Shown one piece after another: positions 1,070-5,458 of a stretch of 5,458 nt of DNA. Within the stretch, counting starts at the first letter, position 1. The number at the start of each line of letters is the position of its first letter. This DNA is from Deltaproteobacteria bacterium (GTDB lineage: Bacteria; Bdellovibrionota_F; JAHFAK01), in the NCBI GenBank assembly GCA_023250585.1, contig JAHFAK010000129.1:1-5458 (forward strand). The letters run 5' to 3'. A program made the position numbers and the translations under genes. The notes under the pieces are model-generated. The model saw only the letters and a program-made list of their open reading frames with translations. It was not told where the DNA came from and did no database searches.

Positions 1070-1074
1070 TTACC
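1065..1074. other. Zero-gap convergent gene junction (palindrome GGTAATTACC)
   Basis: The + strand stop TAA (1067-1069) is followed immediately by TTA (1070-1072), which is the stop of the - strand gene. The two stops form TAATTA inside the 10-bp palindrome GGTAATTACC. No intergenic base exists, so any terminator for either gene must lie inside the other's coding sequence. I see no GC-rich stem with a T-run here. Confidence 0.85.
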
Positions 1075-2785
1075 TCGATATACATTGATTAACCATTTGT
1101 AATAACTTCTTATTATACAAATCTACAATACCATCGTTATTTTGATCATTAATGTGTCTGAATTCAGTGTCTTTAAATGCTTGTAACTCTGAATTTTTCT
1201 TATACATCATATAATTGTATGATGTTTTATTTAAATGATACTCCTCTTTACTGTCCTTAATCCTAGAAAAAAGACTATAATCAGCTGTCATAACCTGTCG
1301 ATCAAGGATATCATATTTTCCGCTTCTCATAACAATAGCTGTGGAAATAACTCTGCTTTGAGGAAGCTTTGTATCCAACGTTATATCACACATATAGGTC
1401 TGTGATCCTTGGTTTTGTTTAATGATCTTTGCCGGAAAATACTTGTATGTCTCAAACGTTCCCTCAGTCATCTGAGTTACCACGCATCCTCGTTCAGGCG
1501 GTACTCGAGGTACACCATTTTTAAACAGATCCTTCCACCGAGGATCTTGAACCTTACCCTTCTCTACATACTGCTGCATACACGGAAGTGGAAGCGGTGA
1601 AGTTGTTTGACCTGGTTTTGGATTTGTATCTGATGAACACGTACCACTTGGTCCACAATTACCCGATGATGAACTTCCACTTACCTCAAACGTCATCTGT
1701 ACACTACTTGAAGCTAAGTTAGAAAACGTATATGCAGTTGCCCATGCTGAGAGATTTATTCCTAATCGTAAATCATCTCGGGTTAATATACCCGGATCAT
1801 CTGTTCGAGTAATAATCTCTGCTTTATAATTATCTCGGTTACTAATATCAGTACGAGTAATCATATCATTGAGAACATATATATTTAAAATATCTGCTGC
1901 ATCTATAGTCTTTCCTGATATTAAGGCTATCCTAAAATCTGAAGTAATCTCTCCTGCAAATGCTCCCGAGTCATCATACACATTAAAGCAATCCATATCA
2001 GGACATTGATACTGCACATTCACCTTCATCGTCGATGGATCGGATGGACTATCATTCTTGGCATTCCCCGTAGGTGTTGTATCACACACATCTCCGCTTC
2101 CATCATGATCACCATCTTCTTGATTAGGATTGCTTACATACGGACAATTATCCTTCTCATTCGCCTTCCCATCTCCATCAAGATCTTCATCACATGCATT
2201 GCCTGTACCATCACTATCTGTATCTTCTTGCAATGTGTTTTGTATATCTGAACAATTATCATCGGTATTAAGAACCCCATCTTCGTCTTTATCCTCTGGA
2301 TTACATGCAGTATTGTCTACATTATACGGACATGGATCTTCTGAATCAGAAATTCCATCTTCGTCTTTATCATCATCACACACATCCCCGAATGAATCTC
2401 CATCTCCATTTGATTGATCTTTATTTACTTTGTTTGGACAATTATCAGCAGTATCTATAATCCCGTCATTATCAGTATCTTGGCATGCATCTCCTATCCC
2501 ATTACTATCACTATCTGCCTGATCTGGATTAGCAATTGCGCTACACACATCTCGCCCATCTACTACTCCATCTCCGTCTGTGTCTTCATTCGGATCGAAT
2601 GTGGCTAATTGATTACTCTCACTCTCGAGAGCATTCTTTGATTCATCATCATCCCCTCCGCAAAAAGGGATTCCTAACGAAAACAAAAGTATGATAGTAC
2701 TTATCGAAATGAATATAAGCGATATAATCGATATCCGGTAGTAGGGGCAATTCTTTCTTCTGTGTTCTTTTAATTCAAGATTCAT
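1070..2785 (-). CDS. Membrane-anchored/lipoprotein-like protein with TSP3 calcium-binding repeats, 571 aa
   Basis: A surface-type protein. The start is supported by GGAGAG 8 bases upstream (2794-2799). Residues 1-16 are basic, 17-41 are hydrophobic, then FCGGDDDES follows. Cys42 with a Gly/Asp tether looks like a lipoprotein N-terminus, but Ile-Pro-Phe before it is a poor lipobox, so a type II membrane anchor is possible. Residues about 64-236 are thrombospondin type 3 repeats: nine Asp-rich calcium loops alternating long (DTDGDGVVDGRDVC) and short (DSDSNGIGDAC) forms, each closed by a Cys. TSP3 repeats bind Ca2+ and form a rigid stalk. Residues 250-571 are unrecognised: a possible beta-rich domain (255-370), a Ser/Gly/Pro linker (370-400) and a C-terminal region with further Cys residues. 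An isolated Ca-loop (DQNNDGIVD) lies at about 547-555. It is transcribed alone and convergently to the exported-protein gene. I see no convincing promoter in the AT-rich DNA upstream. Confidence 0.85.
   Translation of the reverse strand: MNLELKEHRRKNCPYYRISIISLIFISISTIILLFSLGIPFCGGDDDESKNALESESNQLATFDPNEDTDGDGVVDGRDVCSAIANPDQADSDSNGIGDACQDTDNDGIIDTADNCPNKVNKDQSNGDGDSFGDVCDDDKDEDGISDSEDPCPYNVDNTACNPEDKDEDGVLNTDDNCSDIQNTLQEDTDSDGTGNACDEDLDGDGKANEKDNCPYVSNPNQEDGDHDGSGDVCDTTPTGNAKNDSPSDPSTMKVNVQYQCPDMDCFNVYDDSGAFAGEITSDFRIALISGKTIDAADILNIYVLNDMITRTDISNRDNYKAEIITRTDDPGILTRDDLRLGINLSAWATAYTFSNLASSSVQMTFEVSGSSSSGNCGPSGTCSSDTNPKPGQTTSPLPLPCMQQYVEKGKVQDPRWKDLFKNGVPRVPPERGCVVTQMTEGTFETYKYFPAKIIKQNQGSQTYMCDITLDTKLPQSRVISTAIVMRSGKYDILDRQVMTADYSLFSRIKDSKEEYHLNKTSYNYMMYKKNSELQAFKDTEFRHINDQNNDGIVDLYNKKLLQMVNQCISR
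1118..1150 (-). other. Isolated C-terminal EF-hand-like/TSP3-like calcium loop
   Basis: Residues 546-556 of the TSP3 protein read NDQNNDGIVDL, matching the D-x-N-x-D-G-x-x-D pattern of EF-hand, dockerin and TSP3 loops. It lies more than 300 residues from the main array, near the C-terminus. A single loop may stabilise the C-terminal domain. The motif is seen; calcium binding is inferred. Confidence 0.5.
2078..2596 (-). repeat. Coding tandem repeats: TSP3 calcium-binding array
   Basis: This stretch encodes residues 64-236 of the TSP3 protein, an alternating series of about four and a half long/short Asp-Cys units. Repetition is mostly at protein level. Exact DNA repetition is limited, for example a 17-bp direct repeat CCATCTTCGTCTTTATC at 2277-2293 and 2355-2371 (encoding D-K-D-E-D-G). 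The array is therefore old and diverged rather than a recent tandem expansion. Confidence 0.8.
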
Positions 2786-5087: not shown

Positions 5088-5098
5088 TACGAAAGACA
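5088..5098. repeat. Left copy of the putative target-site duplication
   Basis: TACGAAAGACA occurs here and again at 5252-5262, directly bordering the inverted-repeat element on both sides. Three bases (TAC) of the right copy can equally be counted as the end of the element, so the duplication is 8 bp (GAAAGACA) to 11 bp. Confidence 0.7.
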
Positions 5099-5254
5099 GT
5101 AATAGCTCAGTAAATGGGAAAAATGAAGATGGATCCCGTGGTCAAGCCACGGGATGACAAACGGGAAACACTCTCACATTGTCATCCCGCGGCTTGACCG
5201 CGGGATCCAGTTCCATAGAAAAATTACTTATTCCTCCATTTACTGAGCTGTTAC
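5099..5254. mobile_element. 156-bp MITE-like element with terminal inverted repeats and two nested hairpins
   Basis: The ends (5099-5117 and 5236-5254) are 19-bp inverted repeats with one mismatch, bearing AGCTCAGTAAATGG. Inside, 5131-5160 and 5179-5208 are 30-bp inverted copies of each other with two differences. Each copy is itself a hairpin: ATCCCGTGG/CCACGGGAT (5133-5155) and ATCCCGCGG/CCGCGGGAT (5184-5206). The two differences are a T-A pair in one stem and a C-G pair in the other, so pairing is kept. The spacer is 5161-5178. There is no transposase or ORF. Flanking direct repeats TACGAAAGACA indicate insertion by transposition. The GTCATCCCGCGGCTTGACC-type core resembles, from memory, dispersed palindromes seen in other bacterial genomes. 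A non-autonomous element mobilised in trans is the best reading. Confidence 0.8.
5131..5208. repeat. Paired inverted hairpins at the core of the element
   Basis: Two 9-bp stems with 5-base loops (5133-5155 and 5184-5206) face each other around an 18-base spacer. The whole region can fold either as two separate hairpins or as one long 30-bp stem. No T-run follows either stem on either strand, so this is not an intrinsic terminator. Confidence 0.75.
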
Positions 5255-5458
5255 GAAAGACATGAGACATGTCTCATGTCTTCTTTCAACAATTCATCAT
5301 ACGATTTCGTAATTCCTTTTCGATAATCAAAACCCAATTTTTTTGAAACTTCTATAATGCTTTTTTTCGTTCCTTCAATTTCAAGAAATGATCCGATTTG
5401 CGGCAGGGTATCAATACAAATTTTTGTTTTTTTATACATGTAGAATTCTCGAATTTTT
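5251..5458 (-). CDS. CYTH-domain protein (class IV adenylate cyclase/triphosphatase-like), C-terminal part
   Basis: The frame is open through the right edge, so the true start lies outside; the Met at 5439 is internal, because the codons before it (KIREFY) continue the family pattern. The 68 visible residues hold the C-terminal signature of CYTH proteins: KIREFY, a strand ending in CID, then IGSFLEIEG, whose ExE glutamates line the active-site tunnel and bind metal/triphosphate, then a helix (KKSIIEVSKKLGFD) and SYDELLKE. CYTH enzymes hydrolyse inorganic or thiamine triphosphate, or make cAMP; which applies cannot be told. After SYDELLKE the tail DMRHVSCLS is encoded by a 26-bp palindrome, and the stop codon comes from the inserted element. 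Without the insertion the frame would run on eight more codons (YITFGKHL) to a TAA at 5063-5065. Confidence 0.75.
   Translation of the reverse strand, partial: KIREFYMYKKTKICIDTLPQIGSFLEIEGTKKSIIEVSKKLGFDYRKGITKSYDELLKEDMRHVSCLS
5257..5282. repeat. 26-bp perfect palindrome inside the CYTH 3' end
   Basis: Each half reads AAGACATGAGACA, so 5257-5282 equals its own reverse complement with no loop. It lies within the last codons of the CYTH gene and overlaps the right-hand target duplication (5252-5262). The mobile element inserted at its edge. It could be an operator-like dimer site, part of an older repeat, or simply a hairpin-prone insertion target. Confidence 0.75.

Follow-up and report, generated by a model that had tools for sequence, protein, structure and literature searches.

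A resident parent transposase is usual for MITEs, although it is not strictly defining. Among described families, MITEAba12 measures 113 bp and makes a 9-bp duplication (PMC6382973), and MITECca01 is present in 169 copies and has an IS982 parent (PMC9769881). IS66 elements in general carry GTAAGCG ends and duplicate 8 bp (PMC11946415). ISDge4, a member of the ISBst12 group of IS66, has the end sequence GTAACTGCTCAG (GTAACTGCTCAGCA) and is bordered by an 8-bp repeat, and transposition in this group is still poorly characterised (PMC12898284). In the part of the MITE literature covered by our search, no IS66-type MITE was named. Here, we relate an element in a 5,458-nucleotide stretch of DNA (the window, taken at its full length) to these systems. 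We consider it highly probable that this element belongs to a recently active, non-autonomous MITE family with IS66-type ends, mobilised in trans by a transposase of IS66/ISBst12 type; which enzyme moved it, and that the enzyme acted in trans, we infer. MITEs as such are known, and what is new is an IS66-type MITE family at high copy number with no parent found in the assembly.

The element occupies 156 bp (5099-5254, without strand), is near-palindromic overall, and was assigned to a MITE subfamily that we call A on the basis of its ends, the approximately 40 similar places in the genome and its fold. Its left terminal inverted repeat (5099-5117, plus strand) has the tip GTAATAGCTCAG and its right one (5236-5254, minus strand) the tip GTAACAGCTCAG in inward reading; the two repeats, GTAATAGCTCAGTAAATGG and GTAACAGCTCAGTAAATGG, are 19 nt long and match at 18 of 19 positions, which bears out the original prediction of a 156-bp block with 19-bp terminal inverted repeats. 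The unstranded target-site duplication GAAAGACA lies on either side, at 5091-5098 and 5255-5262. A longer repeat of 11 bp (TACGAAAGACA) can be read at 5088-5098 and 5252-5262, and a duplication of 8 bp, or up to 11 bp, had been proposed; the shorter length is the better reading, since the right-hand TAC belongs to the final GTTAC of the element. Inside the type A core, a 30-bp palindromic module, TGTCATCCCGCGGCTTGACCGCGGGATCCA (5180-5209, plus strand), is matched by an inverted copy of the same palindrome at 5130-5159 (minus strand), 87% complementary over the longer arm. The whole element folds into a single nested long hairpin (DNA z = -12.8; RNA z = -13.9) and holds no open frame of 60 amino acids.

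At the insertion site, positions 5339-5458 of the window are identical to G000:C60:1-120, an exact overlap of 120 bp, and C60 probably adjoins the contig of the window in the genome, the assembler having left the two unjoined. The overlap completes a minus-strand gene for a CYTH-domain protein (window 5251-5458) whose frame ends within the element, its stop codon being the TAA in the right tip (5251-5253, minus strand). When the flanks are joined and one duplication is removed, the frame continues YITFGKHL followed by a stop. On this reading, the element is inserted at the 3′ end of the gene for the CYTH-domain protein, which lies upstream of tadA, and makes its frame 8 residues shorter. The other flank of the element holds a T2SSE-family (tadA-like) gene, for which a site at 5079-5051 resembles a promoter by consensus only; we claim no regulatory role for the element. 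Immediately next to the element, where the CYTH gene has its 3′ end, there is also a perfect 26-bp palindrome (AAGACATGAGACATGTCTCATGTCTT, 5257-5282) with a terminator-like score on both strands. Several genes for thrombospondin type 3 repeat proteins with a similar N-terminal membrane segment, mutually close, are present in the window (1070-2785) and on C60 (L093:459-3939).

The genome to which the window belongs is a draft of 2.24 Mb in 164 contigs, 96.7% complete. A genome search placed type A sequence at about 40 places, many of them where contigs end, an indication that these repeats caused breaks in the assembly. Among the 30 type A copies read with flanks, 12 are identical to the consensus in their core, and the median core identity is 99.0%; such high identity points to a recent burst. 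A search of the genome with the end pattern returned 170 matches, compared with 57 for the reversed control, and the sequence around most of these matches (1.02 Mb, approximately 45% of the genome) was read for a survey of ends. Within it, a weight matrix identified 142 end-like sites. The 8-bp duplication is exact at 47 of these and has one mismatch at 22, whereas shuffled flanks gave 0.2 exact and 1.8 single-mismatch duplications per round. The duplication had been taken as a mark of transposition, and the excess over shuffled flanks shows that it is not due to chance. The sites in the 1.02 Mb resolve into 48 distinct elements bordered by 8-bp duplications, which are exact for 33 of the elements; most measure 154-164 bp. 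This set includes one mis-paired entry of 371 bp (L087), rejected as a false pairing because the true element is shorter and has CTTCATGGT at both sides. The duplication is exactly 8 bp in 27 of the 33 exact cases, and 9-bp duplications occur at a few further copies.

These duplications are richer in A+T (75%) than the stretches read (64%). Only 12 of 40 joined sites (30%) fall within an open frame of 100 codons, as against 86.5% of random positions. In the sequence read, joined flanks have no match away from their own sites, and no empty site was found at a paralogous place. One type A copy (L144:308-383) begins directly after a tRNA-Arg gene, and its duplication, AGGCGCAC, is the gene's final 8 bases. 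Taken together, the elements are short and gene-less, have inverted ends and a duplication that differs between copies, and are dispersed in many copies, and on these features they are MITEs. The original prediction of many genomic copies with the same ends is thereby confirmed, many having their own 8-bp, sometimes 9-bp, duplication. Neither a single-copy sequence at the same place in distant relatives nor copies lacking these ends appeared. The prediction is supported both in its observation and in its main reading.

The family comprises at least three subfamilies, namely A (that of the window), B and C, under the common tip GTAAYNSCTCAG, which is also the consensus over the elements. Past this tip the three share little, although A and B are partly alike immediately inside it. 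Type B is built on a different palindrome, measures about 157 bp, contains GACGTCGCTTCCATAATA..., and has the same tips and 8-bp duplications; among duplication-bearing elements it is no rarer than type A (examples at L138:7885-8041, L116, L149 and L091 in this genome). Type C starts with GTAAYNSCTCAG-AAGGTGTG, has AAGGTGTGAAAAAATC after the tip and contains a TGTCATTGCGA...GAAGCAATCTC stretch. Type C and type A/C composites were seen at L126:1317, L090:17071, L145, L155 and L085. Composites of 326-443 bp containing type C have exact duplications of their own, from which it follows that they moved as units. At the other extreme, elements of 35-44 bp retain the 8-bp duplication (L080:5210, L121, L081:4797, L082:10220, L093:4876, L095:8419 and L137). 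We rejected these as minimal transposons because their junctions lie at short direct repeats of the GGGAGTA or AGGCAT type, repeats that stand on both sides of the palindrome in complete copies of type B; on their sequence they look like deletion scars across the palindrome. A search for long elements gave no convincing duplication within 7 kb of any unpaired end, and a one-mismatch case in L096 was judged to be chance.

To place the tips, we searched 386 genomes for genes of IS66 transposases and located the ends of their elements independently of the presumed tip, by an exact 8-bp direct repeat together with inverted ends agreeing in their first two letters. The IS66 proteins tested exceed the NCBIfam IS66 cut-off. 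In other genomes this yielded the ends GTAACTATTCAG/GTAACCATTCAG, present in G047 in several copies, as well as GTAAGCGCTAAT/GTAAGCGCTCAA, GTATCCGTTCGC/GTAAGCGTTCGG and GTAAATATTCGG, and the 8-bp duplication is exact in every case; two lesser candidates (L187 and L200) were unlike IS66 ends and were set aside. The end of ISDge4 agrees with GTAACAGCTCAG at 11 of 12 tip letters, and the likeness to IS66 ends as a whole rests on approximately 9 of 12 positions plus the length of the duplication. Having a GTAA start, the IS66 tip pattern and an 8-bp duplication, and thus resembling IS66 elements and ISDge4 in tip and in duplication length alike, the ends are IS66-type, nearest to the ISBst12 group. 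The element is nevertheless not itself an IS66 insertion sequence, as the DDE_Tnp_IS66 gene is absent from it and was not found in the assembly.

A corresponding enzyme was sought in the genome itself. Neither PF03050, for which the controls were positive, nor a five-protein profile run without a control detected an IS66 transposase in the 96.7%-complete assembly; ISL3 and IS256 transposase genes (PF01610 and PF00872) were likewise not found. Two DDE_Tnp_1 (PF01609) genes, on C103 and C116, were considered as the autonomous partner and discarded for having no matching ends. The draft yielded neither a gene-carrying element with the same ends nor a parent transposase whose ends match. The view that no transposase is nearby and that an enzyme from elsewhere is needed therefore holds.

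The foremost alternative is that the MITE was moved by a transposase of another DDE family making duplications of this size. Duplications of 8-9 bp are made by ISL3, IS256, IS1, IS6 and IS1595, so that the length by itself is compatible with any of them, and the genome yielded no mobilising enzyme. The tips, however, start with GTAA and have TCAG at positions 9-12, as in IS66 elements and ISDge4, and the missing ISL3 and IS256 genes tell against two of the candidates. We regard this alternative as unlikely.

A second alternative, very improbable in our estimation, starts from the 30-bp module, which would be the mobile unit in a family of REP-like palindromes dispersed by a REP-associated (Y1) transposase. 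The element is indeed strongly palindromic, and the module stands alone in many other genomes: TGTCATCCCGCGGCTTGACCGCGGGATCCA is found exactly in at least 93 stretches from other genomes, including those of Rickettsia and Kangiella and Gammaproteobacterial and Deltaproteobacterial assemblies, where (L207-L286) it is single, paired or otherwise arranged, in differing surroundings and without the MITE tips in the contexts viewed. A palindrome spread in this way would be expected to have no target-site duplication, yet 8-bp duplications are present, and their precise position at the outer GTAA tips indicates that the 156-bp unit moved and not the module. Types B and C, moreover, have the same tips and duplications without the module. 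The MITE thus carries a common bacterial palindrome. Least credible of all is a structured RNA or terminator-like regulatory element held by selection and not a transposon, which would account for the strong RNA fold and for sites mostly outside open frames, but is contradicted by the absence of any Rfam family match in the window, the occurrence of both orientations, the precise duplications, the unrelated interiors under the same tips and the joined sites that do lie within open frames.

The module's wide occurrence is in contrast to that of the MITE around it. A search of 97 other genomes, in which the nearest relative was one class-mate, gave no type A copy of full length, and a search of 385 other genomes gave no type B copy. 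The type B core was not found in viral contigs, and a single tip match there was judged to be chance, as it lies in a coding-looking stretch and has no paired end. The 20-letter end has no exact match in a collection of 84,980 species, in which this genome itself is possibly not included.

For a MITE family with IS66-type ends, a mechanism can be proposed. A transposase supplied in trans would recognise little beyond the 12-bp tips, cut the target with an 8-bp stagger and then join the element ends to the target, and repair of the gaps would yield the 8-bp duplication. The same enzyme may have spread at least three otherwise unrelated interiors (A, B and C) as well as fused composites, mostly to intergenic sites, and may since have been lost or be located in unassembled sequence. 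More tentatively, and with somewhat less than even confidence, we suggest that a 12-bp tip suffices for an IS66/ISBst12-type transposase, and that unrelated palindromic cargo was spread under it as three MITE subfamilies and composites with no parent remaining. The cargo would then be strongly palindromic, including a palindrome common across Proteobacteria, and its host lineage a deep and little-sampled one. This links a high-copy MITE family of a little-sampled lineage to the IS66/ISBst12 group and offers natural data on the minimal end sequence that the ISBst12 group may need. The family also makes up a good part of the genome's dispersed repeats and probably accounts for some of its contig breaks.

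In relation to known systems, the family thus stands closest to the ISBst12 group of IS66, represented by ISDge4 and the G047 element (L175), with which it shares the tip form GTAAYNNYTCAG and the 8-bp target duplication. Members of that group are about 1.5 kb long, whereas the MITE described here has 156 bp, no transposase gene and unrelated sequence inside its tips. The free-standing palindromes of Rickettsia, Kangiella and other Proteobacteria match 5180-5209 exactly and differ, in the contexts viewed, in the absence of the MITE tips. With MITEAba12 and MITECca01 the family has in common that it is short and gene-less, with inverted ends, duplications of its own, many copies and a bias against genes. 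Those two have a resident parent insertion sequence whose ends match theirs, whereas the present family has no parent that could be found and combines one tip with several unrelated interiors.
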